From Lachnospiraceae bacterium (lineage in GTDB: Bacteria > Bacillota > Clostridia > Lachnospirales > Lachnospiraceae): 44,837 nt of DNA. The translations under genes and the position numbers were made by a program. The notes beneath the pieces are model-generated. The model was not told the DNA's origin. It ran no database searches and saw only the letters and a program-made list of their open reading frames with translations. Location of the stretch: assembly GCA_017619975.1 (NCBI GenBank), contig JAFZRH010000050.1:1-44837 (forward strand), read 5' to 3'. Positions 8,101 through 22,468 of this stretch are shown in pieces. Numbering within the stretch: the first letter of the stretch is position 1; each line of letters begins with the position of its first letter.

Positions 8101-8670
8101 GCCCCGGCGCGGCGTCCGTTCCTCTCGGATCCGGCGGAGCCGGACGCGGAGGAGATCAGCGCCGCCGAAAAAGGGACGCTCTTCCATAAACTGATGGAAC
8201 ACCTTCCGCCGGAAAGAGCGGGCAGCCGCGAAGACGCGGCCGCCTGGCTTACGGAAGCGAAGGCGGCCGGCCTCTTCAGCGAGACGCAGGCGGCTTCGCT
8301 GGATCCGGAGATCGCGGCAGAGTTTTACCGGCAGCCTGTCGGACACCGGGCGCTGGCCGCTGCGGCAAAAGGAAAGCTGCAGCGGGAAAAACCGTTTATT
8401 CTGGGCGTTCCGGCGCGAGAACCGGATCCTTCCGACAGCAGCGGAGAGATCGTGCTGGTGCAGGGCATTATCGATCTGTATTTTGAAGAAGAGGACCGCC
8501 TGATCCTGGTCGACTACAAGACGGACAGGGTTCGAAGCGGGACGGAACTGATCCGCCGCTATGAAACGCAGCTGCGCTGGTACAGCCGCGCGCTGGCGGC
8601 CGCCTCCGGGAAGACCGTGGGGGAAGTGTATATTTATTCGACCGCACTGCGGGAATTCGTACGGCTATAG
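5158..8670 (+). CDS. addA: AddA, ATP-dependent helicase/nuclease subunit A
   Basis: A 1170-residue UvrD-type superfamily 1 helicase with a C-terminal nuclease; partner of AddB in double-strand break resection. Visible are the Q motif (FSPSQQKIID), Walker A (AAAGSGKTSTLV), motif II (VDEYQD), motif III (VGDVKQSIYRFR), motif V-like GTLHSSKGLEYPVV, motif VI (LYVGMTRAVEQL) and the nuclease motif LVDYKTDR near residue 1117. The ATG at 5158 has an AAGGAGG site about 10 bases upstream, inside the last codons of addB. The protein is complete. Nothing is missing from the catalytic set. Confidence 0.96.
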   Translation: MGFSPSQQKIIDHRSGSLLVSAAAGSGKTSTLVAHVVKYVENGGDLGRLIIVTYTRTAAGEMRERIRIALEEAVNRQPSERHLRHQLAILPQARISTVDSLCSRLVRSYFQQIDGLMPDIRIAEEAEIRLLSQDILEAVLEEAYSAADPDFYALLDGYSSEKGHQEIMEQILLLYDSAQNAPFPEAWMDRALPAFPQTANALRQLPWMEQSVRSIRETLGELAARQDALLGELEERDAAGGALGALLREERNQIGQWLAADDYWQLRQALTAWKPAALSKKEYKRDPAFETVREVRGGLTTGGYFSLLAPLRKAPYIGPEEELRLLNLTAAPGRALIALTKCFAEKREAACRERGIATFMDMEHYALRLLVEKNADGQPVPTELARELQKGLDEIIVDEYQDINQVQEYILRGLSGEDAGRPNLFMVGDVKQSIYRFRRADPGIFMRKYAEFSPEDGAPHRKILLQDNYRSRAAVLNSTNRLFARMMDRRFGGVDYDKSAALHPAAAFSGEDPKTRVLLLEAEGNAEARLKEEGRLIAWQIRRLMAENRQIREKGPDGTVRLRPLSFGDIVILCRSLKYGAALGRVLKSCGLPAVAQETKGFYDTLEVQTLLSLLAVLDNPRQDIPLTAVLLSPFGGFTQKDLAEALPQAGGAGEDLLDRLRKLPPETAEGRFVRFLEKLENWREAAGIRSVPELLDYLLEESGWELYLKATSSGAVRLANLRQLKEMAQAYEDSSYRGLYQFLRYVDRQKDLQLDVGEAPLLSDGSDVVRIGTLHSSKGLEYPVVFLAGLEKHFNERDIGSPILIHADHGLALESRDREALMKYKNVWHRFVGGEIRRDGRAEELRLLYVGMTRAVEQLFLVAALRGELPEELEKRKDMKPEAAASFLDWLLACRAAGDDLGMAWEGYRPEEIPQPEEAALSEQLARFEAAEREQDPKLLAAVRDQFDWRYPYPPLKKMSWSVSELKQADAGKADAHSAEAPARRPFLSDPAEPDAEEISAAEKGTLFHKLMEHLPPERAGSREDAAAWLTEAKAAGLFSETQAASLDPEIAAEFYRQPVGHRALAAAAKGKLQREKPFILGVPAREPDPSDSSGEIVLVQGIIDLYFEEEDRLILVDYKTDRVRSGTELIRRYETQLRWYSRALAAASGKTVGEVYIYSTALREFVRL

Positions 8671-8696
8671 ACGAATGCCGCAAAGCGTGCTATAAT
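8668..8696 (+). promoter_or_regulatory. Probable sigma-A promoter of the sortase gene
   Basis: TAGACG (8668-8673), a 17-base spacer, then an extended -10 TGC-TATAAT with the hexamer at 8691-8696. It overlaps the addA stop codon and would start transcription near 8703, about 44 bases before the sortase ATG. The -35 matches four of six consensus bases and the -10 is perfect. Confidence 0.6.
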
Positions 8697-8746
8697 TCTG
8701 GGAAACCGGGAAAACGATTGTTTCCCGCTTACGGAAAGGTCACAGA

Positions 8747-9826
8747 ATGCCGGAAGAAAAAACGGAAAACTCCATTCAGACCCGCAAGAGCCGCCAGCTC
8801 ACGGAGAAGAAAAAAAAGAACCGCAGAATCCGATGGATCTATAACGGGATCCTGATTCTGCTGCTTGGCGTGATCCTTTTTTCGGGGTATCAGATCTACA
8901 GCAAGACGTATTATTATAAGAAGGCACAAAAGGTATACGAGGCGCTGGAGAGCGACGTCGTGCAGATCGTGGACGGCCCGCCGCAGTATACCCGGGAGGC
9001 GGTCCTGCCCACGTCCGGCGCGGAGGATCCCGCCCAGACGCTGCCGGCGGCGTCGGTTCCTGCCGCGAGCGGATCGGCGGCCACGGATCCCGCGGTACCC
9101 GGGACGACGAAAAACAGTCAGGAGACGCTGACGGCGGTTTCTCCGGCGGATCCGTCGCAGGAGACGGCAGAACCCGCGGAAACCTCTCCCGCGGAGACCC
9201 GCCAGCAGGAAACTTCGGATCCCCTTCCCGTACCGGTCAGCTATCCGACGCCGAAAGGGGAGATGCCCTGGCTGTCGGTGAATTTTACCGAACTTCTCAG
9301 GAGAAATTCGGATGTGGTGGGATGGCTTTACGGCCAGGGCGGCCATATCAACCATCCGGTCGTGCAGGGACGGGACAACAGCTACTACCTGCACCGTCTG
9401 CTGGACGGAAGCTGGAACTATGCGGGAACGCTGTTCGCGGATTACCGGAACCGTTTCCTGGAAGATGATCTCACCATCATCTACGGCCATCACATGCGGA
9501 ACGATACGATGTTCGGCCTTATGGAGCTGTGGGACGATTACGAATATTACCTTCAGAATCCGACGCTTCGGCTGTATACGCCGACAGCCGTCTATGAACT
9601 GCAGATCATGGCTTCGGTCTACAGCGACGTGGATGAACCGCTGATGTTCAACTTCGGCGGCCGCGACGACTATCAGAAAGTGGTCCAGAGCTTTCTGCGC
9701 CGTTCCACGATCAGTACCGGCGTGACCGCGGAGTACGGCGATAAGCTGGTCTGCCTGTATACCTGTGCCTATCAGGTCGACGACGGACGGCAGTTCCTCA
9801 TCTGCAAGCTGGTTCAGATCGCCTGA
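8747..9826 (+). CDS. Class B sortase
   Basis: A 359-residue membrane-anchored transpeptidase that cleaves a C-terminal sorting signal and links surface proteins to peptidoglycan or to each other. After a basic cytoplasmic N-terminus there is one membrane segment (about residues 28-48), then a long Ala/Pro/Thr/Glu-rich linker (about 90-165) that is longer than in typical SrtB. The catalytic domain has His248 in YGHHM, Cys340 in LYTCAY and Arg348 in DDGRQF. The spacing TCAY-DDGR-CKL is of the class B type. The downstream giant protease has no recognisable sorting signal, so the substrate is probably encoded elsewhere. The ribosome site is GGAAAGG. Confidence 0.9.
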   Translation: MPEEKTENSIQTRKSRQLTEKKKKNRRIRWIYNGILILLLGVILFSGYQIYSKTYYYKKAQKVYEALESDVVQIVDGPPQYTREAVLPTSGAEDPAQTLPAASVPAASGSAATDPAVPGTTKNSQETLTAVSPADPSQETAEPAETSPAETRQQETSDPLPVPVSYPTPKGEMPWLSVNFTELLRRNSDVVGWLYGQGGHINHPVVQGRDNSYYLHRLLDGSWNYAGTLFADYRNRFLEDDLTIIYGHHMRNDTMFGLMELWDDYEYYLQNPTLRLYTPTAVYELQIMASVYSDVDEPLMFNFGGRDDYQKVVQSFLRRSTISTGVTAEYGDKLVCLYTCAYQVDDGRQFLICKLVQIA

Positions 9827-9881
9827 GACAAATAGTCTCAAAATTTTTTGTTTTTCTCATTATTCACGCGCTTATTCGCTT

Positions 9882-9909
9882 TTTCCCCGCAAGGGGAAAT
9901 TGTTTTTTT
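9882..9909 (+). terminator. Intrinsic terminator after the sortase gene
   Basis: A seven-pair stem TTTCCCC/GGGGAAA closes a GCAA tetraloop (9882-9899) and is followed by TG and seven T's (9903-9909). It separates the sortase transcript from the protease gene. Confidence 0.8.
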
Positions 9910-10217
9910 ATCTGAAAAGAAAGAATAAAAAGAAATATTGGAAAAAACGCGCGGAAGGGATTCGGGCCGCCGCAAAAGAAAAAACGAAAATATATGCAAA
10001 TATTCACGCTAATATGCAAAAATATTCCTCTTTAGTATTTTTTTTGAAAGAATATCGTATATTTCTTCTTGAATTTTCTGAATGAATCGTTTATTATATA
10101 TCGAGCAAAAGAAGATACCGCCTTTCTGCGGCCGGCGGAAACTTGCAGAGAAGCGTCATCTTTCTGCTTCCTGATATTCAAAAATCAGGGAAATAAACAA
10201 AAAGGAGAGAATAGAGA
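9910..10217 (+). other. AT-rich leader region of the giant protease gene
   Basis: No gene is supported in this roughly 300-base gap, which is much more AT-rich than its surroundings. It holds A-tracts, a near direct repeat (ATATGCAAATATTC at about 9992-10005, then ATATGCAAAAATATTC at about 10012-10027), a probable promoter at 10069-10097, and a 6-base inverted repeat CCTGAT/ATCAGG (10170-10175, 10184-10189) in the presumed 5' leader. The start codon of the next gene is set by AAGGAG at 10202-10207. Short open frames here lack ribosome sites. Confidence 0.6.
10069..10097 (+). promoter_or_regulatory. Probable promoter of the giant protease gene
   Basis: TTGAAT (10069-10074), 17 bases, TATTAT (10092-10097), in a strongly AT-rich setting. 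This predicts a 5' leader of about 110 bases. Several other AT-rich hexamers are nearby, so the choice is moderately certain. Confidence 0.45.
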
Positions 10218-13200
10218 ATGAAGAATTCACCTCTGTACAGGCGTCTTCTTTCTGTGGTTCTGGCGTTCGCGATGATCTTTGCGACGCTGACTCCGACTCC
10301 GCTGACAGCAAAAGCTGCCAACGAGCCGAAGCAGACCAAGAAAGAACTGGAGCTCACTCCAATCGACCCCAGTACGCTCAATGACCGGCGGAATGACAAT
10401 CTTGTCCGGGACACCGTTGAGAAAGAACCGTACAGTCTGACTGACATCGTTCGTGTATCCATTGAGCTGGAAAAGGCTTCCACCATTGACGCCGGCTTCA
10501 GTATCAACGGCATCGCGCAGAACGCTGCGGCGAAGGCTTATCGGAACAGTCTGAAAGAACATCAGGCTGCGATGACGACCCGGATCGAAGCGGCGCTCGG
10601 CACGAAGATCGACGTTCAGTGGAATCTGACTCTGGCTGCAAATATCATCTCCGCCAATGTCCGCTACGGCGATATCGAGAAGATTCAGGCAGTCCCCGGT
10701 GTCAAGTCGGTTTTCCTGGAAAACCGCTATGAGCCCGAATTGGCTATTAAGAATGAGAGCGGCAAGCTGGAAGCCGATGAACCCAACAACGGTTCCGCTT
10801 CCTACACGATCGGCTCCAACGTAGCCTGGGCCGCCGGATACACCGGTGCCGGCAGCAAAGTTGCCATCATCGATACCGGTGCCGACAGCGAGCATCAGTC
10901 CTTCTCGGGAGAAGGTCTGGAATACGCGCTGGCTCTAAATGCGGAAGCCAAGGAGATGACGTACGACGAGTACGTTGCCACCTTGAATCTGCTGACGGCG
11001 GATGCCATCGAGGCCGTTAAGGATCAGCTGAATGCCAACATCGGCTCCGGCGAGGCGGCTTACCGCAATACCAAGATCGGCTACGGCTACAACTATGTTG
11101 ATAAAACCGTCAGCTACATCGAGCATATCAACGACTCGCAGGGCGAGCACGGCTCTCACGTAGCCGGTATTGCCACTGCCAACCGCTTCATCGAAGTTGA
11201 CGGTGAATTTAAGCCGGCACTCGAAGTGGCCGGTACGCAGGGCGTTGCTCCGGATGCCCAGCTCGTTGTTATGAAGGTCTTCGGCAAGGGCGGCGGCGCT
11301 TACGATTCCGACTACATGGTCGCGATCGAAGACGCCATCGTGCTCGGCTGCGATTCCGCCAACCTGTCGCTGGGTTCCGGCGCGGCCGGCTTCGGCTTCT
11401 CCTCCGGCTATGAAAATATCATGAACAAGCTGGTGGAAAACGGCCTGGTCGTTTCCTTCTCCGCCGGCAACAGCGGCATGTGGTACGACGAACCGAAGAA
11501 CGATTCGATGTATTCTTACCTGTATATGGATGATGCCAACTACGACACGGCCGGCAGCCCCGGTTCCTTCACCAACGCCCTGACGGTCGCTTCCGTGGAT
11601 AATGCCGGCCAGACCGGCATGCCGCTGCTCTTCGGTGATCTGCACGTGTTCTACAGTCAGACCTCCGGCTACGGCAACAACCCCATTTCCACGCTGGCCG
11701 GAGAGGAACTGGAATATATCTACTTCGACAACTACGGCGCGGACGGCGACGGCAACAGCCTGCTGACCCCTTATGCCGACGCGATCGAAGGCAAGATCGT
11801 GCTCTGCTCCCGCGGTACCTCGTCCTTCTATCAGAAGGTCAACGCTGCGGCGGCGGCCGGTGCCATCGGCTGTATCATTTACAACAACCAGCCTGGTGTC
11901 ATCAATATGAACCTGACCGGCGTGACCACCAATATCCCGGCGGTTTCCATTACGCAGGCTGACGGACTGGCCATCAAGGCACAGTCTGAGGCGGTTACGG
12001 CAGAAGACGGCACCACGTACTATATCGGCACCATGGAGATCGGTGAAAACATCGAGGTCCAGGTTCCCGAGATCTCTGACAACGTGACGGTCTCCAGCTT
12101 CTCCAGCTACGGTGTTCCCGGCACGCTGGTCTTAAAGCCCGAACTGCTGGCTCCCGGCGGAAGCATCTACTCCGTCAACGGCCTGAACAACGAGGGCGGC
12201 GGCCACGATCTGTATGAAGTGATGTCCGGTACTTCCATGGCTTCCCCTCAGGTCGCCGGTATGGCGGCCGTGGTCGGCCAGTATATCCGCGACAACGATC
12301 TGTGCGAAAAGACCGGCCTCTCCGAACGCCAGCTGATCAATTCCCTGCTGATGTCCACCGCTCACCCGGTATATGACAGCTATGACGAGTATTATCCCGT
12401 CATCCGGGTCGGCGCCGGTCTTGCCAATGTGGGCGACGCGATCGCGGCGCAGTCCTATATCCTGATGGATGAAAACGCCACGATCTTCCCCGACTCCGCG
12501 AAAGACGGCAAGGTCAAGGCCGAACTGGGCGACGATCCGGAACGCACCGGTACCTACAGCTTCTCCTTCACGATCAATCCGCTGGAAGGCGAGAAGGAAT
12601 TTAAGCTTCGCACCGATCTGTTCGTTCAGGATTACGCCGGCAATGGCGGATACGGCATGCTGCAGTACACCGGCACCACCAGCATCAGCAACGTGATCGG
12701 TTATTTCGGTATTGACGATCCCGGCTACGAAGTCAGCTACGTTGTCAACGGCGAAGTCCACGAGAACTCGTTCCTGCTGGAAGCTGACGTAAACGGCGAC
12801 GGGCTGACCAATGCCGCCGACGCGCAGGCGATCCTGGATTTCCTGACCAAGAAGGTAACGGAAATCAATGAAGTAGTCGCCGACGTGGACGGTGACGGGG
12901 AGATCACTTCCCTCGATGCCGAAGCGATCCTGGCCGGCGCCGTAGCTCCTGTCATCACCGTCACCGAGCCCACCGAGGTCACGGTGAACATCCAGCTGAC
13001 GGATATAGCTATGGAAGTTCTGGATTATCTGTACAACAGCACCTATATCCAGGGCTACACCTTTGTAGATCCCGTTGCCGATGAAGAAGGCGTGATGGAT
13101 GTGACCCACTCCATTCCGATCCTGGCTTTCTACGGTTCCTGGACCGATGCGGCCATGTTCGACCGTACTTCCAAGATCGATGAAGCATACGGCACCGGCA

Positions 13201-16200
13201 AGCTGCCGTATATCGGCGTCACGAATATCAACTACCTGACGCTGAAGAATGCGAACGGCGGTTCTGTAGCTTACATGGGCAACCCTTATATGGTAGAGGA
13301 TAAATTCCCGGCCGAAAAGCTCGCCATGCGTTCCGATGCGACCATTCAGTCAGCAACCTATCTGAATATCCGCAATATCGCTACGATGGGCTTTGCGGTG
13401 CAGAATGAGGAAGGAAAGGTTCTGTTCTCGCAGGCCACAGCGACCAACAAGTACGGTGCCTACTACTATGTAAACGGCGGCACCTGGCAGAACACCACCC
13501 CTGCTACCTACAACATCGGCAAGTCGCTGACCGCTGCAGACGTACAGGAAGGCGATAAGGTTACCGTCGGCTTCTATGCGCTGCCGGAATACTATGCGAT
13601 TCAGTACGCGAAGATGAACGGCGATATTGCCACCTCCGGCGGCCTGGACAATGACGCTTTTGCCGCCGTGCTCGAAGCGGGCATTGTCGGCGACGGCGCT
13701 GCCATCAAGTACGATGTCGTGATCGACGATACCGCCCCTGTTGTGGAAGGCGCGCTGATGGATCTGATCACGGGCGACATCTTTGTCCGCGCTTCCGACA
13801 ACAACTACATCGCTTATGTTGCGATCACGAACAGAAGCGGCTCCAAGGTCTTCTTCGAGGTCGTTCCGGATCAGGACAAGGCCGGCGAACAGATCGAAGT
13901 TCCGCTGGAGCTTGAAGGACAGCCTCTGCCGAGTGAAGTCGTTCTGCTGGTTGCCGACTATGCCGGCAACGAGGTTGCCTTCCAGGTCAGCCTGGGCGGC
14001 GAAGCCCCGGATTACGGCGGAACGATGATCGGTTTCGTAGGCGAAAACACGACCGCGGCTCCCGGCACGGGCAACCGCGTGTGGGAGATCGACCGCGATG
14101 CTCTGACATACAACTACAGTGCGGGCACCTACGAAGGTCTGGGCGTTGCCGGACAGCTTGCCTTCACGGTCAGAGCAGCCGAATATGTGGACGGCTACGT
14201 CTTCATGGCTGCCACTGACGGCTTCTTCTATGCCGCAGAATACGGCGTATGGGATGAAGCGGCTGCCGTCGGCAGGTATACCGATACGGTAGCTGAGATC
14301 TACGACATGGCCTTCAGCTACAGAGACAAACAGCTCTATGTACTGGGCAGTGACAACACGCTCTATACCATGGATCTGGTAACGGGCGCCTTAACGCCTG
14401 CCGTACATCTGACGCTGGACGGTGCGTCCGGTAATTACTCGGTCGCGAACAAGCTGGCCATCGACGATGAAGGAAACTTCTATGTTGCCGGCTACGGCTC
14501 TACCAGCTATGCAACGCTCTATAAGTTCAAGCTGACCGATTTCGCTGCGGAACCGGAAGAAGAGGAAGAAGAGTCCGAATTCGGTGAAAAGCTCTATGCT
14601 TTCGGTTTTGAAACCGATTATGCGGAAGAAGGCTGGCAGCTGATCGATGCGGACGGCGACGGCCGGAACTGGAGTGTAGATACGAACGCTCCGCAGGAAG
14701 GCACGAAGTGCATACTGTCTGCCTCTTATGTGGGCGGCACGGCGCTGACCCCGGACAACTGGGCCGTCTCCCCTGCCATTAACCTGAGCGAAGTGGATGA
14801 AGCAACCTTCTCCATCTACGGGAAGAACTACATGAGTTCGTATCCGGAGACGCTGGCTCTGTATGCCGGAACCACTGATGACATCACAGAAATGGCAAAA
14901 GTATCCGACGACTTCAAGCCGGATACGGTCTGGACGCAGTACACGGCCGATCTGGCCGACTTTGTCGGTGAGGAAGAGGTCTATGTGGCTGTCCGTCACT
15001 ACAACAGCTACGACCAGTTCAGAGTTTACGTCGATCAGATCGAAGTCTTCGGCAAGGCTGATGAGGAAGAGCCTGAAGAACCTGTCGAGGCCGTTGAGCT
15101 GACTATAGAGCCTGTTGGTCTTATGGGCGTCTATAACTTCAACAACGGCGGCGCGCTGGCGTGGGACCACAACCTGGGCATCCTGTATCTGGCCTCCAAC
15201 TACAACGCCACGCAGGACTACGATCACTATCTGTGGGTCATCAATACCTCGACCGGTAAGGCAACCCGTGCGAACGAAGTCTCCGGTACCGGCAATACCA
15301 GCAGCAACCAGTCTGCCCGTCTGTACGGCGCTGTTTGCGGTCTGTTCATCGTGCCCGGTCAGGAACACTATATCCAGCCGACCGACACCGCGACCGGCCT
15401 GATCGTCATGCCGGAGTCTCTTACCCTGTTCAAGGGACAGACTGGCAGTATCGCGGCCACGGCTCTGCCCTGGACGCTGACTGACAAGACCGTCACCTGG
15501 GCTTCCGCCGATGAAGCGATTGCCACCGTGAAGGACGGCACCGTGACCGGCATTGAAGCAGGCGAGACCGATATCACCGTATCGACGGTCGCTGTCGGCG
15601 AAGACGGCAATCCGCTTACCGCAACGGTCCATGTAACGGTCGTTGTACCGCCTGAAGCTGAGCTCCGCGCCATCATCTGGGACGAGAACGGCAAGGGCCA
15701 GGCCTCCGTCTTCAACTCTAACGCTACTAATGAGTGGGAGGCCGTGGAAGTTGTCGGCCAGCTGCGCTGGGGCGCGCTGATCGGCGACACGGTCTACGGT
15801 TCTACCGACGACACCATGTACGCCTTCGATGCGGATACCTATGAGGTCGAGCAGTTCGGCGGCATCGTCTCCATGTGGATCCCGTCCGACGCGACCGAAC
15901 TTCCGCAGGATATCATTGATGCCTTCGCTGCCATGGGCTATACGGTCGGTGCGGTCCTTGGTCCGAACAACAACGGTAGCTATCTGTCCATGATCGGTCC
16001 GGAAGAAGGCAGCATCCTCTACTTCAACCTGAGCAGCTATGCCTTCGGTTCCGATCCGATGGCGACCATCACCTATGCCGGCCGCGGCGTGTATGACGAC
16101 GGCGAAAGCTATGATGAAGACGCTGCTGTGTTCTACGTAATGACCGAGAGCGGCATGCTGTGGCTCTTCACGATGAATCATGAAGGCTACGTCATGTGGG

Positions 16201-19200
16201 ACGAGATCGGCAGAACCGGCATTGAGCTGACCGGTGTGGCTGATTCCACCAACCAGATCTGGGCCTCCATGGTCTACGATTTTGAGAACGAGTTCCTGTA
16301 TCTGGCGCACTACGACGGATCGGATGACTATGCCTACCTCTATGCGATTGATCCGGCGGATCCTTCCAGCAACGGAAGGACCGGCGACTTCAATGCGGAT
16401 GTATGGCCCGTCACCGGCCTGTATCAGTACGAACCGGCTACCGATCTGGTGCTGAAGGTCAAGCCGCTGGATCTCGTGATTTTTGAAGGCGACACGGCTG
16501 AACTGAGCATCAAGGTCAAACTCGGCGAGACCAACGAGTACACCGTCGAGGTAGAGGATCCCACCATCTGCTCCTTCGAGAACGGCGTTGTGACCGCTCT
16601 GAAGGAAGGCACCACCACCATCACCGTCACCACGGTGGACGTCAATGAAGCCGGCGAGCACCTGTCCGAGACCGTCAACGTCAAGGTCAAGGGCTTCAAG
16701 AGCGTTGAAGCTTTCATTGGTGCGCAGGTCACGGATGAGCACGGCACCCGCTTCACCAAGATCAGCCTGGACGGCGCGATCGCTTCCAAGAAGGGCGCTG
16801 ACGCTCCCGGCAACGTCACCTCCGGCGCGCGCACCGGTGACATCTACATTGCCGGCGTCGGCACCACGCCTTACGTTCTGGATGCTTCCAGCTTTGAAGC
16901 GACCAACGTCTGGAACGGCATTGATTCCTACTACGCCACCTATCCGGCGATGGATATTGCCAACTACCCGAACCATCTGGACAGCTCCGGTGCAGTGGAC
17001 GATCACAGAGCCCTGTTCACCACCTCTCTCGGCTGGCTGGTGTATCCTGACTATTATGGCTGGAACCTGAGCTCCATCCTGCCTGACATGGCCGGCATCT
17101 GCTTCGGCGGTACGCAGGACAGCAATGGATCTACCATCTACGTCTACTATGTAATGACCACGGCCGGTGTTCTGTATGAGATCGATATCGATCCTACGGC
17201 CGGTTCCCTGAACTACGGCGAGCTGCTCGAGACCGGCATCACCTTTGCCGATCAGAGCGACTGCTCCATGGCCTGGCTGGTCAATGCCGATGTGACCGCC
17301 GACTGGGAAGTCGACCTCAGCGCAGAGGGCATCGTTGTAGCCGACAACGGATCCAAGAGGATCTACTACATCGACTTCCTGGCCGAGGATGAAGACGACA
17401 TAGTCGGCCTGATCGGTATTATGGACGTCGAGAACGTTTCCGGTCTGTACGGTTCGTTCGACAGCCTGGCTACCATCATCGATGAAGAACCCGAACCGGA
17501 ACCCGAACCGGAACCCGAACCGCATCTCAGCGGCGACCTGATCGCAGGCTTCTACTTCGAGAGCGATCCCGAGGTGGAAGGCTGGACCTTCTTTGACGAT
17601 GACGACGACGGCTTCAACTGGTTCTGGAACCTGGGCAACAGCAGTTACGCCAGCATCGCGGCCTACGAAGGCAGCGGCATGCTGATGTCCCACTCCTATG
17701 AGAACAACACCGGCGCGCTGACGCCTGACAACTGGGCTTACAGCCCCGTGGTCGATCTGACCGGCGCTGCTGACGATGTGACCCTGGCCTTCTGGGCCAA
17801 GGCGCAGGATCCTGACTGGGCAAACGAGAACTTCGCCGTCTACGTCCAGGTGGCCGGTGAGGAAGGCCTGAATGTGCTGATCCCCGAGACCACGGCAACC
17901 GGCGACTGGGTGCAGTATACTGCTTCCCTGGCTGCCTACATCGGTAAGCAGATTAGCATTGCTTTCCGTCACTTCGACACCACCGACATGTACATGATCG
18001 ATCTGGATGCGGTTGAGATCCTGGAGAACGTCGAGGAAGTCCTGCCTGAACCTGAACCCGAACCCGAACCCGAACCTGGAATCACCGGCAACGTGATCAC
18101 GGATCTGTCCTGCGAGAGCGATCCTTTCGAGAACGGCTGGACCACTGTCGATGCTGACGGTGACGGTTTTGCCTGGATTTGGGACGACGGCACGACCTTC
18201 GACGAGCCCGGTGCTTATGAAGGCGTTGGCATGATCTACTCCCAGTCTTACATCAACAATTATGGTGCTCTGACGCCTGACAACTGGCTGGTCTCCCCGG
18301 CTATCGATCTGAGTGATGCGGCTGAAGATGCCATCGTTTCCCTGTTCGCCAAGGGTCAGGATCCTGACTGGGCGGCTGAGGTCTTTGCCATCTATGCCGG
18401 CACCTCTGACGAAACCGGAACTATGACCAAGATCGGCGGCAACTTCACCGCGACCGGCGACTGGACGCAGTACACTGCTTCCCTGGCTGACTTTATCGAT
18501 GAGGAAACGGTCTATATCGCTATCCGCCACTACAACGTCAGCGACCAGTACTGGCTGGATGTCGACAAGATCGAAGTCCTGGACAACCTGACTGACGACG
18601 GAAATGCGTTTAAGGATGCTCCGACCCATGTGATCGCTGCGGCTTCTCCGAAGAGCGAGGCGACTTCGGCCAACGCGCATAAGATTCCTATGTCCTATGC
18701 CGCGGCTGAGCTTCCTTCCTTCCTGCAGCCGAAGACGGTGCAGCCGACCGGACTCTGCATCGGTACGGCGAAGGCCGACTCCACCGAAGTGCATGTGATC
18801 AGCGCTCCGGCAACGGTCGAGATGCAGAAGTTCAACCCGAACGAAGCAGTCAACAAGACCGTGGGCGGCACCAACGCGATCCGCGGTGACTACACGGCCG
18901 TTAAGGCTGCGGAAGGCACCGTCGAAGAAGGCACTGTCACCGTAACCCTGACCGAAGAAAAAGCTGTTGTCAACGGTTTCTTCCAGATCGAGTACGATCC
19001 TGAACTGCTGACCTTCGAAGGTCTGACCAGCTCGCTGCTGATCACTTCCTACAATGAAGAGGATGGGGTCATCCTGTTTGCCTATGCCTCCATTGAAGAA
19101 GTGCCTGCCGGCGAAGCGCTGGCGGTCCTGAACTTCAGCTACACGGCCGAGTCGATCAATACCGAGATCGTCGTGACCACCTTCGAGCGGAACGACGACG

Positions 19201-20138
19201 CGGCAGTGGAAGAAGATCCTTCTGTGATCCCGGTTGTGGTGGGTGTTTCAGCGAATGTTGCTTCTGCATCCTTAAGTCTGAAGGGTGACATTGCAGCGAA
19301 CATCTATGTCAAGACAGCAGTGGAAGGCCTGAAGGCAGTCATGACTTACAACGGTCCCACCGAGAGAACCGTGGAGTTCGTACTGAGCAAGGATCAGAGC
19401 TTCTACCAGGCTGACAGAGATCGCTATGAACTGAAGTTCGCGAACATTCCTGCCAAGGAAATGACGAGAACCGTTACGCTGAAGATCTATGATGCCGCCG
19501 GAAATGAAGTACCGCTTACGCTTTCGAGCAGTGTCGGCAAGCTGAATGACGGTGCTTATGAATTCAGAGTCGCTGACTGGTGCAATGTAGCTATGGAGTC
19601 GTATCCGGAAACGAATAAGTACCATAAGCTGGCCAAGGCGATCCTGAATTACGGTACTGCAACGCAGCGTCTGAAGAACTACTGCCTGGATGATCTGGCG
19701 GATCCTAACGGTTTGATGGATGCCGAGATGGCAGCCGTCGTGGCCGATGAATCCTACGATATCGTATTCCCTGAAAATGTAGAAGCGACCGGTTACCTGA
19801 CCATGGCGCTGAACAATCTGGGAGCGATTGAGATCTGGCTGAACTTCAACCATGAAGTCGTTGCCAGCGTAGCGGGTTACGAAGGGAAATACCACATCCA
19901 GGAGGTAACAGCCGGTGAGAAATACCGTCTGGTGATCGAAGATGTCAAGGCCAAGGAACTTGGCAAGATGTTCGAAGTCACGGTTACGGAAGATGGTGTG
20001 GATTATCTGTTCAAGGTTTCTGCGTTGAGCTACGCCAACCTGGCATTGACCAGTGACAAGGCCGATGAAAAGACGAAGGATTACGCAAGAGCACTGTATC
20101 TGTACTATGAAGCCGCATTTGAGGCACTGAGCAAATAA
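10218..20138 (+). CDS. Giant secreted S8 subtilase with dockerin, Big2, cleaved-adhesin and cohesin-like modules
   Basis: A 3306-residue exported protease. The signal peptide ends near TAKA-AN (residues 30-34). A propeptide-like region is followed by the S8 domain with the triad Asp219 (IIDTGAD), His311 (HGSHVAG) and Ser673 (SGTSMASP), and oxyanion Asn418. A PA-like insert lies at about 515-600, as in C5a peptidase/lactocepin relatives. Next come a two-repeat dockerin (about 855-909, DVNGDG and DVDGDG), beta-rich and propeller-like stretches, a cleaved-adhesin-like domain (1459-1613), Big2 domains (about 1721-1811 and 2073-2159), two more cleaved-adhesin-like domains (2439-2605, 2625-2791) joined by Glu-Pro linkers, a cohesin-like domain (2895-3008), and a C-terminal region with YEFRVADWCN and KAILNYGTATQ. 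There is no LPxTG-type signal or C-terminal membrane anchor. The triad is intact. Target and anchoring are unknown. Confidence 0.9.
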   Translation: MKNSPLYRRLLSVVLAFAMIFATLTPTPLTAKAANEPKQTKKELELTPIDPSTLNDRRNDNLVRDTVEKEPYSLTDIVRVSIELEKASTIDAGFSINGIAQNAAAKAYRNSLKEHQAAMTTRIEAALGTKIDVQWNLTLAANIISANVRYGDIEKIQAVPGVKSVFLENRYEPELAIKNESGKLEADEPNNGSASYTIGSNVAWAAGYTGAGSKVAIIDTGADSEHQSFSGEGLEYALALNAEAKEMTYDEYVATLNLLTADAIEAVKDQLNANIGSGEAAYRNTKIGYGYNYVDKTVSYIEHINDSQGEHGSHVAGIATANRFIEVDGEFKPALEVAGTQGVAPDAQLVVMKVFGKGGGAYDSDYMVAIEDAIVLGCDSANLSLGSGAAGFGFSSGYENIMNKLVENGLVVSFSAGNSGMWYDEPKNDSMYSYLYMDDANYDTAGSPGSFTNALTVASVDNAGQTGMPLLFGDLHVFYSQTSGYGNNPISTLAGEELEYIYFDNYGADGDGNSLLTPYADAIEGKIVLCSRGTSSFYQKVNAAAAAGAIGCIIYNNQPGVINMNLTGVTTNIPAVSITQADGLAIKAQSEAVTAEDGTTYYIGTMEIGENIEVQVPEISDNVTVSSFSSYGVPGTLVLKPELLAPGGSIYSVNGLNNEGGGHDLYEVMSGTSMASPQVAGMAAVVGQYIRDNDLCEKTGLSERQLINSLLMSTAHPVYDSYDEYYPVIRVGAGLANVGDAIAAQSYILMDENATIFPDSAKDGKVKAELGDDPERTGTYSFSFTINPLEGEKEFKLRTDLFVQDYAGNGGYGMLQYTGTTSISNVIGYFGIDDPGYEVSYVVNGEVHENSFLLEADVNGDGLTNAADAQAILDFLTKKVTEINEVVADVDGDGEITSLDAEAILAGAVAPVITVTEPTEVTVNIQLTDIAMEVLDYLYNSTYIQGYTFVDPVADEEGVMDVTHSIPILAFYGSWTDAAMFDRTSKIDEAYGTGKLPYIGVTNINYLTLKNANGGSVAYMGNPYMVEDKFPAEKLAMRSDATIQSATYLNIRNIATMGFAVQNEEGKVLFSQATATNKYGAYYYVNGGTWQNTTPATYNIGKSLTAADVQEGDKVTVGFYALPEYYAIQYAKMNGDIATSGGLDNDAFAAVLEAGIVGDGAAIKYDVVIDDTAPVVEGALMDLITGDIFVRASDNNYIAYVAITNRSGSKVFFEVVPDQDKAGEQIEVPLELEGQPLPSEVVLLVADYAGNEVAFQVSLGGEAPDYGGTMIGFVGENTTAAPGTGNRVWEIDRDALTYNYSAGTYEGLGVAGQLAFTVRAAEYVDGYVFMAATDGFFYAAEYGVWDEAAAVGRYTDTVAEIYDMAFSYRDKQLYVLGSDNTLYTMDLVTGALTPAVHLTLDGASGNYSVANKLAIDDEGNFYVAGYGSTSYATLYKFKLTDFAAEPEEEEEESEFGEKLYAFGFETDYAEEGWQLIDADGDGRNWSVDTNAPQEGTKCILSASYVGGTALTPDNWAVSPAINLSEVDEATFSIYGKNYMSSYPETLALYAGTTDDITEMAKVSDDFKPDTVWTQYTADLADFVGEEEVYVAVRHYNSYDQFRVYVDQIEVFGKADEEEPEEPVEAVELTIEPVGLMGVYNFNNGGALAWDHNLGILYLASNYNATQDYDHYLWVINTSTGKATRANEVSGTGNTSSNQSARLYGAVCGLFIVPGQEHYIQPTDTATGLIVMPESLTLFKGQTGSIAATALPWTLTDKTVTWASADEAIATVKDGTVTGIEAGETDITVSTVAVGEDGNPLTATVHVTVVVPPEAELRAIIWDENGKGQASVFNSNATNEWEAVEVVGQLRWGALIGDTVYGSTDDTMYAFDADTYEVEQFGGIVSMWIPSDATELPQDIIDAFAAMGYTVGAVLGPNNNGSYLSMIGPEEGSILYFNLSSYAFGSDPMATITYAGRGVYDDGESYDEDAAVFYVMTESGMLWLFTMNHEGYVMWDEIGRTGIELTGVADSTNQIWASMVYDFENEFLYLAHYDGSDDYAYLYAIDPADPSSNGRTGDFNADVWPVTGLYQYEPATDLVLKVKPLDLVIFEGDTAELSIKVKLGETNEYTVEVEDPTICSFENGVVTALKEGTTTITVTTVDVNEAGEHLSETVNVKVKGFKSVEAFIGAQVTDEHGTRFTKISLDGAIASKKGADAPGNVTSGARTGDIYIAGVGTTPYVLDASSFEATNVWNGIDSYYATYPAMDIANYPNHLDSSGAVDDHRALFTTSLGWLVYPDYYGWNLSSILPDMAGICFGGTQDSNGSTIYVYYVMTTAGVLYEIDIDPTAGSLNYGELLETGITFADQSDCSMAWLVNADVTADWEVDLSAEGIVVADNGSKRIYYIDFLAEDEDDIVGLIGIMDVENVSGLYGSFDSLATIIDEEPEPEPEPEPEPHLSGDLIAGFYFESDPEVEGWTFFDDDDDGFNWFWNLGNSSYASIAAYEGSGMLMSHSYENNTGALTPDNWAYSPVVDLTGAADDVTLAFWAKAQDPDWANENFAVYVQVAGEEGLNVLIPETTATGDWVQYTASLAAYIGKQISIAFRHFDTTDMYMIDLDAVEILENVEEVLPEPEPEPEPEPGITGNVITDLSCESDPFENGWTTVDADGDGFAWIWDDGTTFDEPGAYEGVGMIYSQSYINNYGALTPDNWLVSPAIDLSDAAEDAIVSLFAKGQDPDWAAEVFAIYAGTSDETGTMTKIGGNFTATGDWTQYTASLADFIDEETVYIAIRHYNVSDQYWLDVDKIEVLDNLTDDGNAFKDAPTHVIAAASPKSEATSANAHKIPMSYAAAELPSFLQPKTVQPTGLCIGTAKADSTEVHVISAPATVEMQKFNPNEAVNKTVGGTNAIRGDYTAVKAAEGTVEEGTVTVTLTEEKAVVNGFFQIEYDPELLTFEGLTSSLLITSYNEEDGVILFAYASIEEVPAGEALAVLNFSYTAESINTEIVVTTFERNDDAAVEEDPSVIPVVVGVSANVASASLSLKGDIAANIYVKTAVEGLKAVMTYNGPTERTVEFVLSKDQSFYQADRDRYELKFANIPAKEMTRTVTLKIYDAAGNEVPLTLSSSVGKLNDGAYEFRVADWCNVAMESYPETNKYHKLAKAILNYGTATQRLKNYCLDDLADPNGLMDAEMAAVVADESYDIVFPENVEATGYLTMALNNLGAIEIWLNFNHEVVASVAGYEGKYHIQEVTAGEKYRLVIEDVKAKELGKMFEVTVTEDGVDYLFKVSALSYANLALTSDKADEKTKDYARALYLYYEAAFEALSK
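17487..17522 (+). repeat. Glu-Pro linker repeat
   Basis: Three copies of the 12-base unit GAACCCGAACCG encode a 12-residue Glu-Pro rod between a beta-rich segment and the second cleaved-adhesin-like domain of the giant protease. A sister linker of eleven residues sits at 18045-18077. Such linkers usually act as stiff spacers and the DNA repeats can expand or contract. Confidence 0.9.
17534..18590 (+). repeat. Tandem cleaved-adhesin-like domain repeats 2 and 3
   Basis: Two adjacent copies of a roughly 165-residue domain share ALTPDNW, DPDW, TATGDW-QYTASLA and IA(F/I)RH(F/Y) motifs. They are alike at both DNA and protein level. A more distant first copy is at 14592-15054 (ALTPDNWAVSPA, VWTQYTADLADF). 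The pattern ALTPDNWxxSPxxDL followed by an AxRHY strand is the signature of the cleaved adhesin family known from gingipain-type surface proteases. Confidence 0.75.
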
Positions 20139-20151
20139 TTGTTGATCCTCA

Positions 20152-20186
20152 CGGGGAATATCGGGAAATTTTCCCGATATTCCCCG
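20152..20186 (+). other. Perfect 17-base-pair inverted repeat after the protease gene
   Basis: CGGGGAATATCGGGAAA and its exact complement are separated by one T, 13 bases after the protease stop codon. The stem is followed by a run of A's, not T's, so it is not a standard intrinsic terminator for the protease transcript. It may stabilise the 3' end or stop transcription in another way. Confidence 0.7.
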
Positions 20187-20216: not shown

Positions 20217-20245
20217 TTGACATGTTAAAAATAACATGGTAAAGT
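20217..20245 (+). promoter_or_regulatory. Promoter of the 28-residue peptide gene
   Basis: A perfect -35 TTGACA (20217-20222), 17 bases, then an extended -10 TGG-TAAAGT with the hexamer at 20240-20245. The start of transcription is expected near 20252, giving a leader of about 50 bases. The spacer is filled by a perfect palindrome, which points to repression or activation by a DNA-binding dimer. Confidence 0.75.
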
Positions 20246-20280
20246 GCTACTTGAGTATTGATAATACTCATTCGCGCGAA
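20221..20280 (+). promoter_or_regulatory. Three consecutive operator-like palindromes
   Basis: First: CATGTTA-AAAA-TAACATG (20221-20238), lying between -35 and -10. Second: TGAGTATT-GAT-AATACTCA (20252-20270), at the expected transcription start. Third: TTCGCGCGAA (20271-20280), directly adjoining. All three are perfect. The first two are typical of dimeric-regulator operators. The second and third could also fold in the RNA leader. No regulator gene is next door. Confidence 0.65.
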
Positions 20281-20303
20281 TCTGAGGGAGGAGGTACCAC
20301 ACA

Positions 20304-20390
20304 ATGAAATACGAAAGTGCTGAAATGACAGTTGTTCTTTTTGCAACGAATGATGTTATTACTACCAGCGATGACACTCCGGAGCTGTAA
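20304..20390 (+). CDS. 28-residue peptide, possible precursor or signal peptide
   Basis: A tiny gene with a very strong ribosome site (GGGAGGAGGT, 8 bases before ATG) and its own promoter and terminator, so expression is well supported. The peptide begins MKYESAEMTVVLFATNDV, continues ITTSDDTPEL and stops. It has no cysteine and no signal peptide. The N-terminal part (KYE..EM.VV.F...DVITTS) has the look of a conserved leader, and short peptides of this style recur in gut Clostridia (from memory, not searched). It could be a precursor of a modified peptide, recognised by the PqqD-like protein encoded 1 kb away. No maturase is present in the window. The function is unknown. Confidence 0.7.
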   Translation: MKYESAEMTVVLFATNDVITTSDDTPEL

Positions 20391-20424
20391 GGGAACATTC
20401 TAAAAAGGGTACGGAAGGTACTCC

Positions 20425-20467
20425 AAAAAACACCATGGCAGGATCGCTACCTGCTATGGTGTTTTTT
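20425..20467 (+). terminator. Bidirectional terminator between peptide gene and traX-like gene
   Basis: An 18-base stem AAAAAACACCATGGCAGG pairs with CCTGCTATGGTGTTTTTT (one G-T wobble) around a seven-base loop. It gives a T-run on both strands. It ends both the peptide transcript and the convergent minus-strand gene. Confidence 0.9.
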
Positions 20468-20495
20468 GTCTTGCAGAGCAAAGCGGCATTCTTTT

Positions 20496-21230
20496 TCAAT
20501 ACCCTGTCGTTTTCAGCCGTATCACGTACAGCAGCAGCATATGGAGCGGATAGAGCAGATAGAAGAACAGAGACAGCAGTTTTCCCTGTATAAAGCCGCG
20601 TTTTCCGTTATACAGCGCGATAGGAATAAAAGCCAGTCCGGCCTTCCAAGTGGAGGATAAGAAACAGGCACCGGTGACAGCCCGGCAGATCGGCATGTCC
20701 CGCAGAAGATAAAGCAGGAGGATAAAACCGAAACCGCTACAGCCGTAATCGGCTTTCAGCAGAACAGAGGCGGCCAGCAGCAGGATCAGCAGAATGAAAT
20801 CCCGAACCTTGTTTTTCTCATCGTTTTTGATATCCTCTAGCAGCCAAAGCCCCAGAAAACCGAGAAATAGGGTAAAGAAGACGTTCTGCGACGCGTACGT
20901 GAGTGTGCCGGTATGTTCCAGATTCCACGGGATCTCCGAGATCAGGGCAAAGAGAAGAAGACGAAGTCCGTAACGCAAGCGGTCACGGGTATGAAAAAAA
21001 CCTTCCACCAGAAGAAAGGCGTACAGCGGAAATGCCAGACGGCCGACGGTCCGCATGGCCGTATACAGGGTAAGGGAACGGCTGCCGATTCTCAGCAAAA
21101 CGGTCGTATCGTTCCGCAGCAGAACGCTGGCCGTATGATCGATCAGCATGGAAACAAGAGCGATCAGCTTTAACAGGCTGCCGCTCAGGATCTTCGCTTT
21201 CGGAGGGATCACCGAATAGGCGCTGTCCAT
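20496..21230 (-). CDS. TraX-family membrane protein
   Basis: A 244-residue polytopic membrane protein of the TraX family. The family includes the F-plasmid pilin acetylase TraX and related membrane acyltransferase-like proteins; many chromosomal members in Gram-positives have no assigned role. Visible are the family motifs KLIALVSMLIDH near the N-terminus, a GRLAFPLYAFLLVEGF stretch, SEIPWNLE, and at least six hydrophobic segments. The C-terminal YPLHMLLLYVIR is typical too. A GGGAAGG site precedes the chosen ATG. It stands alone on the minus strand, convergent with the peptide gene and divergent from the PqqD gene. Acylation of a peptide or pilin would fit the family but is only a guess. Confidence 0.85.
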   Translation of the reverse strand: MDSAYSVIPPKAKILSGSLLKLIALVSMLIDHTASVLLRNDTTVLLRIGSRSLTLYTAMRTVGRLAFPLYAFLLVEGFFHTRDRLRYGLRLLLFALISEIPWNLEHTGTLTYASQNVFFTLFLGFLGLWLLEDIKNDEKNKVRDFILLILLLAASVLLKADYGCSGFGFILLLYLLRDMPICRAVTGACFLSSTWKAGLAFIPIALYNGKRGFIQGKLLSLFFYLLYPLHMLLLYVIRLKTTGY

Positions 21231-21338
21231 ACAGAATGCCTTCCCTTTCTTTTGCCGGAACGGGATCCGGCCGGCAATATCAGTTGTTTTGATGGTATCG
21301 CACTTCTAAATGAAATTCAAGAGAATTTCTCTCTTTTC

Positions 21339-21367
21339 TTCCCATTCTCTTTTCTTTCTGCTATACT
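21339..21367 (+). promoter_or_regulatory. Probable promoter of the PqqD-like gene
   Basis: TTCCCA (21339-21344), 17 bases, TATACT (21362-21367), set in a pyrimidine-rich stretch. Transcription would start near 21374, about 30 bases before the ATG. The -35 is weak. Confidence 0.45.
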
Positions 21368-21402
21368 ACAAAAAAATATACTATTCAACGGAGGTTGACG
21401 GG

Positions 21403-21663
21403 ATGAAACTCAAGGAGGGCTTCCTGACACATGAAGCCTGCGGCGAGCAGATCATGGTGGCAACCGGCAGAAATCAGTTCTCCGGCATGGTGCGCAGCAA
21501 CGCAACAGCTGCCTATATTGTGGATCAGCTGAAAGAAGAAACGGATAAGGAAAAGATCATCGAAAAGATGCTGGAGCGCTACGACGCACCGCGCAGCGTG
21601 ATCGAACCGGACGTCGAGAAAGTCCTCGGGGTCCTGCGGTCCATCGGCGCGCTGGAAGAGTAA
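21403..21663 (+). CDS. PqqD-family protein, possible stand-alone peptide-recognition element
   Basis: An 86-residue protein of the PqqD family. PqqD binds the precursor peptide PqqA and hands it to a radical SAM enzyme; the same fold is the recognition element of many ribosomal-peptide pathways. The chosen start (ATG 21403, GGAGG nine bases upstream) gives MKLKEGFLTHEACGEQIMV. It is followed by the family-typical turn NATAAYIVDQLKEETDKEKIIEKMLERYD and a helical C-terminal end. The reading frame extends upstream to 21310 but without a ribosome site. No pqqA or pqqE lies nearby. The closest peptide candidate is at 20304. In many Clostridia similar proteins occur without a known partner. Confidence 0.82.
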   Translation: MKLKEGFLTHEACGEQIMVATGRNQFSGMVRSNATAAYIVDQLKEETDKEKIIEKMLERYDAPRSVIEPDVEKVLGVLRSIGALEE

Positions 21664-21754: not shown

Positions 21755-22468
21755 TTAATAGATATAGCTGTCTTTTTCCGAGAGGTTTTTGACAAGCCTG
21801 AAAGCGACGAAAAACATGGCGGCGACGAAGGCAATGAAGAAGAGCGTGCCGCCGGCATCCATCCGCGTGGCAATAAAATCGTAGGCTCCGTGCAAAAGCG
21901 TCGGGATGACCAGCGCCAGGATGCTGCAGCTGCGGCTCTTTTCGGGATAGCCGAAATTGTCGTACCGTTTCGCCATGCCGTAGAAAGCTCCCATAAACAC
22001 ACCGAAGCAGGCATGACCCGGAATCGCGGTCACCGCACGGGCCAGTGCGGTCCCGAGACCGTAACGCATGACATAGCCGACGTTCTCGGCCAGGGCAAAG
22101 CCAAGGCTGATGAAAACGGCGTACACGACCCCGTCAAACTGACAGTTGAACTGTTCGGAGAACCAGGTTTTTTTCCGCAGGAAAAAATATTTGGCGCCTT
22201 CTTCCGAAAGCGCGACCACAATGAAATAGAAAAGGATCTCAAAAAAGAGACTGTCGCCGAGAAGACCGAGGAGAAGAGAAGTGCCCAGCTTTTCCAGCAG
22301 CATGGCGACCCCGGTGGCCAGAATGCCAAGACCGGCCAGGATCAGCAGCAGGCGCGGCGATTCCGGCTCCAGCCGGTCTGCGCGATAGATCTTGTACATC
22401 AGAAAAACGGCAGGAATAACGGCTGCCGCGATCAGGATCGGATTAAACAGATTAAAAAGATAGAACAT
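21755..22468 (-). CDS. PrsW-family intramembrane metalloprotease
   Basis: A 237-residue polytopic membrane protein. The four conserved PrsW motifs are present: Glu89-Glu90 in SEEGAKY, Glu128 in FALAENV, His152 in PGHACFGVFMG, and His193/Asp197 in LLHGAYDF. In Bacillus PrsW cuts the anti-sigma factor RsiW within or near the membrane. No sigma factor/anti-sigma pair is next to this copy. It starts 8 bases after the stop codon of a single-pass membrane protein and is surely co-transcribed with it. That partner is a possible substrate or cofactor. Confidence 0.88.
   Translation of the reverse strand: MFYLFNLFNPILIAAAVIPAVFLMYKIYRADRLEPESPRLLLILAGLGILATGVAMLLEKLGTSLLLGLLGDSLFFEILFYFIVVALSEEGAKYFFLRKKTWFSEQFNCQFDGVVYAVFISLGFALAENVGYVMRYGLGTALARAVTAIPGHACFGVFMGAFYGMAKRYDNFGYPEKSRSCSILALVIPTLLHGAYDFIATRMDAGGTLFFIAFVAAMFFVAFRLVKNLSEKDSYIY

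Follow-up and report, generated by a model that had tools for sequence, protein, structure and literature searches.

What is a 28-codon gene doing between the gene of a giant secreted subtilase and that of a PqqD-type protein, and which of its neighbors belong with it? The question arises in contig JAFZRH010000050.1 of Lachnospiraceae bacterium (assembly GCA_017619975.1; 2.1 Mb, 82 contigs, 94% complete), whose 44,837 nucleotides, the whole of contig C62, are the window analyzed here. We consider it probable (about 0.78) that the product of the small gene is a precursor from which a pathway resembling that of the LPP peptides makes a linear, Ser-phosphorylated peptide, and that the gene is paired with the giant subtilase. 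LPP peptides are products of the lppAKBSDN genes of Paenibacillus alginolyticus (Popov et al., May 2026; PMC13381572), and statements on them here and below follow the main text of that paper. The evidence, all at the level of sequence, consists of conservation of the peptide, co-occurrence of precursor, kinase and PqqD genome by genome, an ordered cluster in a relative, a complementary split of the gene set, and a recurrent position. Open reading frames (ORFs) were called mechanically, and the assemblies are fragmented.

The 28-codon gene is real, judged by relatives in other genomes that keep its leader pattern, which is more than chance would give. Its product is MKYESAEMTVVLFATNDVITTSDDTPEL, and the first search with this peptide matched 9 of 41 genomes, including its own (G000). 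A sequence-only reading of the locus had described a 28-residue gene with a promoter, a ribosome-binding site and a terminator, and all of these were found, the promoter-like site being weak evidence on its own (three such sites in the region versus 1.8 expected). The same reading had seen a conserved leader followed by a very short variable tail; the tail was described correctly, and the recurrence of the leader pattern in other genomes makes a leader-bearing precursor likely.

D-[VI]-I-T-x-S is the usual end of the leader, and its serine is almost invariant. Among 72 distinct precursors, a Phe is found ten residues after the leader Tyr in 61 of 72 and an Asp in 64 of 71, and the Tyr (67 of 68 aligned), the Ser (69 of 69 aligned) and the Thr two residues before it (58 of 69) are conserved at frequencies that are upper estimates, because a profile of 14 such peptides served to select the matches. 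LPP precursors carry the motif YxxPxVLxHQxIxFETxxS; cleavage of their leader follows Thr-1, and Ser3 is the residue that the kinase phosphorylates (PMC13381572). The window peptide departs from this motif and shares with it only Y3, the hydrophobic M8 and the T..S end. By analogy to LppA (PMC13381572), a cut after T20 is predicted, which would leave the eight-residue core TSDDTPEL, starting with T21-S22, and S22 as the putative phosphosite. In LppB, D70 holds the leader Tyr and N33 holds the Pro kink (PMC13381572). N33 and D70 of the window PqqD protein align with these residues, and both are kept in 8 of 8 aligned sequences, itself included; LppB numbering was shifted by 18 for this match, and V35, C39, F74, M78 and L83 fit the same shift. 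Searched against PDB sequences, the PqqD profile matched LppB (9x8z, E 4e-5), TbiB1, PbaB1 (9x90) and TfuB1, and the kinase gave no match at 0.01. Leader similarity tracks kinase similarity when the C-terminal domain of the accompanying secreted protein (see below) is allowed for (partial r 0.52, p 0.001, n = 18).

Distribution of the peptide follows that of the kinase and PqqD. In the genus, where a profile of eight peptides was run against 16 genomes, the peptide occurs in eight and PqqD in nine, and the HprK-like kinase and the C-terminal domain occur in the same nine; the peptide is present in eight of these nine PqqD/kinase genomes (Fisher p 0.0014 for peptide versus PqqD), the ninth (G015) being 67% complete. 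Peptide and PqqD genes lie within about 2.5 kb of each other on one contig in four of the seven genus relatives that have both (G003, G004, G008, G012), which bears out the proposal of the sequence-only reading that the PqqD-type protein belongs with the peptide; the co-occurrence within a few kilobases for which it proposed a test held in these four, but not in the other three (G002, G007, G010), where the two genes lie on different contigs. The order sample (246 genomes) is judged the better one for co-occurrence. Peptide matches at E up to 0.1 were obtained in 26 genomes, and three weak ones, in frames of 102, 433 and 552 amino acids (G041, G140, G231), were dropped, so that the precursor is retained in 23. 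A kinase scoring above 150 bits is found in 23 of 23 of these genomes versus 3 of the 223 others (G055, G135, G168), a cut that dropped 12 of the 38 genomes with a kinase match and was chosen after the gap in scores was seen. Counted by genus, the kinase is present in 9 of 9 versus 1 of 108 (p 1e-12, without correction for shared descent). The PqqD family is commoner than the peptide (92 of 246 genomes).

In family f11 the same components are dispersed. Ninety precursor matches are scattered over 20 genomes, up to 11 per genome, and are accompanied by 23 kinase loci, with a single such locus in 18 of these genomes; 89 of the 90 precursors lie on contigs without a kinase locus and one shares a contig with a kinase. 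Homologous peptides without a PqqD-like or TraX-like neighbor had been named beforehand as evidence against a link, and this is literally the situation of those 89 matches; yet PqqD adjoins a kinase in 20 of 20 genomes, and the precursor–PqqD link holds per genome because each of them has a kinase–PqqD locus.

The genome of the window holds one precursor match and one PqqD match, both in the window, and one HprK-like kinase match on another contig (C6, 839-1564, E 2.9e-110). The kinase gene stands directly after three tRNA genes and has an intact P-loop (APSGTGKST); in an operon, it overlaps an S26-peptidase gene (1617-2057), which in turn overlaps an ABC exporter gene (2054-3745). The S26-type protein (L066) aligns with S26-type proteins of relatives, and its Ser24-His63 spacing of 39 equals that of S29-H68 in LppS, the catalytic Asp being left unassigned in the alignment. 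A Pfam scan of this protein gave no match at E 1e-3; the S26 protein of a relative (L032) has a match of E 1e-9 to the archaeal signal peptidase I family TIGR02228, which does not reach that family's cut-off. The exporter matches PF00664 and PF00005, and the best NCBIfam match of the exporter of a relative (L028) is MsbA_rel, below cut-off. As read from gene content, the sets on the two contigs are complementary, with precursor and PqqD on C62 and kinase, peptidase and exporter on C6; the PqqD gene, which lies between the kinase and S26 genes in G003, is not on C6 but in the window. The statement that the window has no maturase or transporter is thus not contradicted, but a kinase, a peptidase and an exporter are present elsewhere in the genome, and for this reason a stand-alone minimal pathway without a modifying enzyme, as suggested by the sequence-only reading, was rejected.

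The set is united in G003 (L028), in the order giant subtilase, precursor, HprK-like kinase, PqqD, S26-type peptidase, ABC exporter and NTP_transf_5 nucleotidyltransferase; from the precursor on, this is the gene set and order of the expressed LPP operon, A-K-B-S-D-N (PMC13381572). The order in G004, G008 and G012 is giant protein, peptide, radical SAM protein, kinase, PqqD and S26 peptidase. More broadly, the peptide gene lies 5′ of a radical SAM gene in G004, G007, G008 and G012 and 5′ of a kinase gene in G003, G010 and G022, and neither adjoins it in G002 and G034. Among the named kinase loci, which are the best 80 of 583 and many of which end at contig edges, PqqD is present in 68, S26 in 59, ABC in 44, a nucleotidyltransferase in 36 and a precursor in 31. 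One kinase locus, L139 of Ruminococcus flavefaciens Y1, comprises kinase, PqqD, S26, ABC and nucleotidyltransferase genes. Splitting recurs, with the set of G002 on three contigs and the kinase without partners in L134 and L184. Kinase and PqqD are fused in one frame in L029 (G004) and L031 (G008) and are in separate frames in L030 (G012). The radical SAM protein is encoded between precursor and kinase in some relatives (L032, 5324-6658; L029, 5771-7198; L201), and 5 of the 80 named loci contain one; its best NCBIfam match is the maturase TIGR04463 of ribosomally synthesized and post-translationally modified peptides (RiPPs), far below cut-off. Its presence suggests a further modification in some relatives; relatives of the radical SAM protein of G007 were searched for in the genome of the window at E 1e-5 and none were found. 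Three kinase loci (L181, L188, L209) are in contigs labeled as Alistipes, Prevotellaceae and Bacteroidales metagenome-assembled genomes, which reflects either transfer or mis-binning.

By analogy with LPP, we infer a pathway in which the PqqD protein of the window would bind the leader at Y3-x-x-A6-x-M8, the HprK-like kinase encoded on the other contig would phosphorylate S22, guided by this RiPP recognition element (RRE), and the S26/SipW-type peptidase would cut after T20. The ABC exporter would then release a short acidic phosphopeptide, about TSDDTPEL, which might, speculatively, act on or with the co-encoded secreted protein. The likeness to LPP lies in the HprK-like kinase, discrete RRE, S26/SipW-like peptidase and MsbA-like exporter, all with counterparts in this genome, and in the Tyr-based leader motif, the Thr shortly before a conserved Ser and the lack of a lasso B2 match in G000 (PMC13381572). 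A counterpart of the nucleotidyltransferase LppN is present in G003. The differences are a leader ending in D-[VI]-I-T-x-S rather than F-E-T-x-x-S, with Pro often replaced by Ala or Leu; the very short core and the gene set at two sites in G000; the position of precursor genes 3′ of those for large secreted proteins, and their large number in some genomes; and the radical SAM protein added in some relatives. The system is therefore taken as an LPP-like variant and not as a strict member, since the published precursor motif is absent from the window peptide and the single cluster typical of LPP, which is found in G003, is divided between C62 and C6 in G000. LPP was described from Bacilli, often beside capsule loci (PMC13381572). 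The main text of that paper has no mention of Clostridia, rumen, radical SAM, or secreted or surface proteins, and among the papers listed in literature searches for this Clostridial precursor family or its pairing with secreted proteins it alone matched the gene set; its supplements may list Clostridial members.

The feature that looks new here is that the precursor gene often lies 3′ of a gene for a large secreted protein. The giant subtilase ends in a domain of about 110 residues that is common to it and to otherwise different large proteins preceding precursors at the named loci; CAP, transglutaminase and GLUG domains each turned up in a single protein when seven domain-bearing proteins were scanned. 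Searches of the domain against Pfam, NCBIfam and PDB sequences gave scattered weak matches only and no convincing family, and it appears to be an uncatalogued domain carried by several types of large secreted protein in gut and rumen Clostridia. Nine of the 16 genus genomes contain between 1 and 10 matches to it. Of the 23 domain genes at the 80 named kinase loci, 17 have a precursor-like frame (>9 bits) within 400 bp downstream, and L136 has two domain gene–precursor pairs in tandem, one of the precursors being weak. Three genomes of the order sample have the domain, and each also has at least part of the cassette: G000; G135, as a 46-residue fragment with the kinase elsewhere; and G151, on a contig that starts with a PqqD fragment followed by S26, ABC and nucleotidyltransferase genes. 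Otherwise different large secreted proteins that share a C-terminal domain tracking dedicated machinery, as in this genus, are known from sorting systems with C-terminal tag domains, such as PEP-CTERM/exosortase and type IX secretion. Unlike in those systems, the machinery here would make a small modified peptide, and no sorting enzyme was identified.

In f11 the pairing takes another form, as the search of the order sample found no C-terminal domain in this family. Twenty regions, chosen mostly at the best match of each genome, gave 21 precursors, each with a same-strand gene directly 5′ (21 of 21; gap −11 to +24 bp). The upstream gene encodes a secreted-looking protein of at least 300 residues in 15 of 21 cases versus 5 of 180 control neighbor pairs (p 5e-14), secretion being called by a crude rule and the control loci including three regions outside f11. 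Among the remaining six, three do not pass the rule, one runs off the end of its contig, and two are secreted-looking but below that length. Seven upstream proteins were scanned, with M60 peptidase, pectate lyase, pectinesterase and BspA-type leucine-rich repeat (LRR) matches above cut-off and two proteins without a match. In f11 it is the tail, more than the leader, that tracks the upstream protein (partial r 0.69, n = 19, only 2 of the 21 pairs having been dropped as near-identical). In the domain-bearing branch, a first analysis of tail and C-terminal domain, which left out the window and L036 pairs as their locus has no kinase, gave a partial r of 0.45 (n = 18).

Several of these observations weigh against the reading, both as a precursor of an LPP-like pathway and as a partner of secreted proteins. 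The genus pattern is confounded by descent, and the distribution of TraX is almost identical (8 of 9 versus 1 of 7). The two weakest order matches, G080 (E 0.024) and G126 (E 0.0085), are without a clean T-x-S end, although both are beside a kinase and PqqD. T20, the predicted cleavage residue, is replaced by Glu or Leu in two genus peptides (G010, G002), and the window leader has Ala for the Pro of YxxP, has no FETxxS end and has T-x-S rather than T-x-x-S. In G000, the precursor and PqqD genes are apart from those of the kinase, peptidase and exporter. As to the pairing, only 6 of 30 genus domain-gene rows (30 of 43 matches were examined as loci, and two of the six rows are one protein) have a precursor nearby, and three genus genomes have 8 to 10 domain matches each and one precursor match each. 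The C-terminal domain is not general, because only 3 of 246 order genomes carry it. Adjacency alone says little, because in the control loci 89 of 180 neighbor pairs are likewise on one strand and no more than 60 bp apart; the signal is the secreted upstream partner. When the near-duplicate L191 was taken out and the window pair added, the tail/domain correlation fell to 0.17 (p 0.056, n = 18), no better than that of leader and domain (0.24, p 0.061); L201 had been removed from both analyses as a duplicate of L029. A tail correlation alone is in any case no proof of contact, because neighboring genes are co-inherited.

One alternative to an LPP-like product is a lasso or other cyclized peptide whose cyclase and B2 genes are elsewhere, and paeninodin-like lasso clusters do share a discrete RRE, an HprK-like kinase, a nucleotidyltransferase and a [YW]xxPx[LVI]-type leader with the present system (PMC13381572, PMC7533575); some rumen lasso leaders are also similar in their N-terminal part (PMC7533575). 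Still, no B2 peptidase (PF13471) was matched in G000 at E 0.01, and on this basis the lasso reading was rejected. Among the other peptide-bearing genus genomes, the only PF13471 match is one of 17 bits in G003, below cut-off; these searches covered the B2 peptidase and not the macrolactam synthetase. An S26 peptidase gene occupies the position of the leader peptidase in LPP clusters. Lasso cores consist of a ring and a tail, with Gly, Ala, Ser or Cys at position 1 and Asp or Glu at 7-9. The predicted eight-residue core lacks Gly1 and is too short for both ring and tail, and a lasso product is very unlikely. A decaying remnant, in which precursor and PqqD were left behind after the cluster broke up, would account for the split set, the very short core and the unrelated opposite-strand gene between the two, and is the least improbable of the alternatives, though unlikely: precursor, PqqD, kinase, S26 and exporter genes are open frames of usual length, the kinase P-loop and the S26 Ser and His are in place, the precursor has its own promoter-like site and a strong terminator, and comparable splitting recurs in G002, L134, L184 and, for 89 of 90 precursors, f11.

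A short ORF followed by a terminator hairpin is also what a regulatory leader or attenuator would look like, and in several relatives a kinase or radical SAM gene lies 3′ of the short ORF, where such control is possible. For the window gene this is slightly less probable still than a lasso precursor, as the amino-acid pattern is conserved across families, its presence tracks the kinase, the f11 precursors are scattered away from the cassette, and an Rfam search of the window at gathering scores found signal recognition particle RNA only, with no match at the peptide locus. Position is all that favors a single acylated-peptide system of peptide, PqqD and TraX, which we regard as the most improbable explanation. 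TraX matches are present in eight relatives. Seven of these have the system, and in none of the seven does TraX share a contig with peptide or PqqD; the eighth, G001, lacks the system, and in G002 the system is present but TraX is not. TraX is not in an operon with the peptide or PqqD because its gene is on the minus strand. The partnership with TraX that the sequence-only reading had entertained was rejected for its contig separation and the mismatch in G001 and G002; TraX looks incidental, and the comparison of relatives lends no support to its membership. G000 has a second, more distant TraX-like match (C70, 5641-6348, E 1.6e-8). The LPP-like precursor remains the preferred reading of the gene.

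The features of the locus are listed in Table 1 with those of the G003 cluster. For PqqD, the start at ATG 21403 agrees with relatives and that of the 117-residue ORF from 21310 does not. The inverted repeat between the giant gene and the peptide promoter may be an operator; it is unlike a plus-strand terminator because an A-run follows it on that strand. A class B sortase gene (8747-9826; TIGR03064, above cut-off) lies shortly before the giant subtilase gene, and a gene for a PrsW-type intramembrane protease (21755-22468; PF13367, E 8e-35) is convergent with PqqD.

Table 1. Coordinates of the features at the peptide locus (window positions) and of the complete cluster in G003 (positions in L028).
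Feature	Position	Strand	Basis or remark
Secreted subtilase, 3306 aa; S8, PA, dockerin, Big_2 and cleaved-adhesin domains	10218..20138	+	165 bp 5′ of peptide gene
Conserved C-terminal domain of giant subtilase	19800..20135	+	common to otherwise different large secreted proteins preceding precursors
Perfect 17-bp inverted repeat, 1-nt loop, between giant gene and peptide promoter	20152..20186	.	sequence
Promoter-like site of peptide gene, TTGACA-17-TAAAGT, TG before −10	20217..20245	+	consensus match only, 10/12
Ribosome-binding site GGAGG	20290..20294	+	9 nt before ATG; read from sequence
Putative LPP-like precursor peptide, 28 aa	20304..20390	+	leader Y3-x-x-A6-x-M8 and D17-V18-I19-T20; conservation in relatives
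Terminator hairpin with T-run	20424..20468	+	−29.7 kcal/mol, z −7.8
TraX-like membrane protein, between peptide and PqqD	20496..21230	−	PF05857, E 2e-37
Promoter-like site of PqqD gene	21339..21367	+	consensus match only
PqqD/RRE protein, LppB-like, 86 aa	21403..21663	+	PF05402, E 4e-14
G003 peptide	7378		L028 cluster
G003 kinase	7797-8534		L028 cluster
G003 PqqD	8610-8870		L028 cluster
G003 peptidase	8887-9366		L028 cluster
G003 exporter	9373-11091		L028 cluster
G003 nucleotidyltransferase	11097-12272		L028 cluster; PF14907

The 2026 paper describes the role of LPP peptides as unknown (PMC13381572), and pairing with large secreted proteins hints at a purpose for this recently found class. We hold it possible, at clearly less than even odds, that the phosphopeptides are dedicated partners of such proteins: the precursor would follow the protein gene and its core evolve with the protein, in one branch the new C-terminal domain would receive, display or be matured by the exported phosphopeptide, and one kinase–RRE–peptidase machine would serve many scattered pairs, as a new system of surface-protein maturation in gut and rumen Clostridia. 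The work also points to an uncatalogued C-terminal domain, and it suggests that RiPP mining by gene neighborhood would miss most f11 precursors, 89 of 90 of which are on contigs without a kinase. With LPP-like precursors of gut and rumen Clostridia tied to individual secreted proteins, namely subtilases and, in f11, a pectate lyase, a pectinesterase-like protein, an M60 peptidase and an LRR protein among others, each peptide would have a named partner, and its role would be directly testable.

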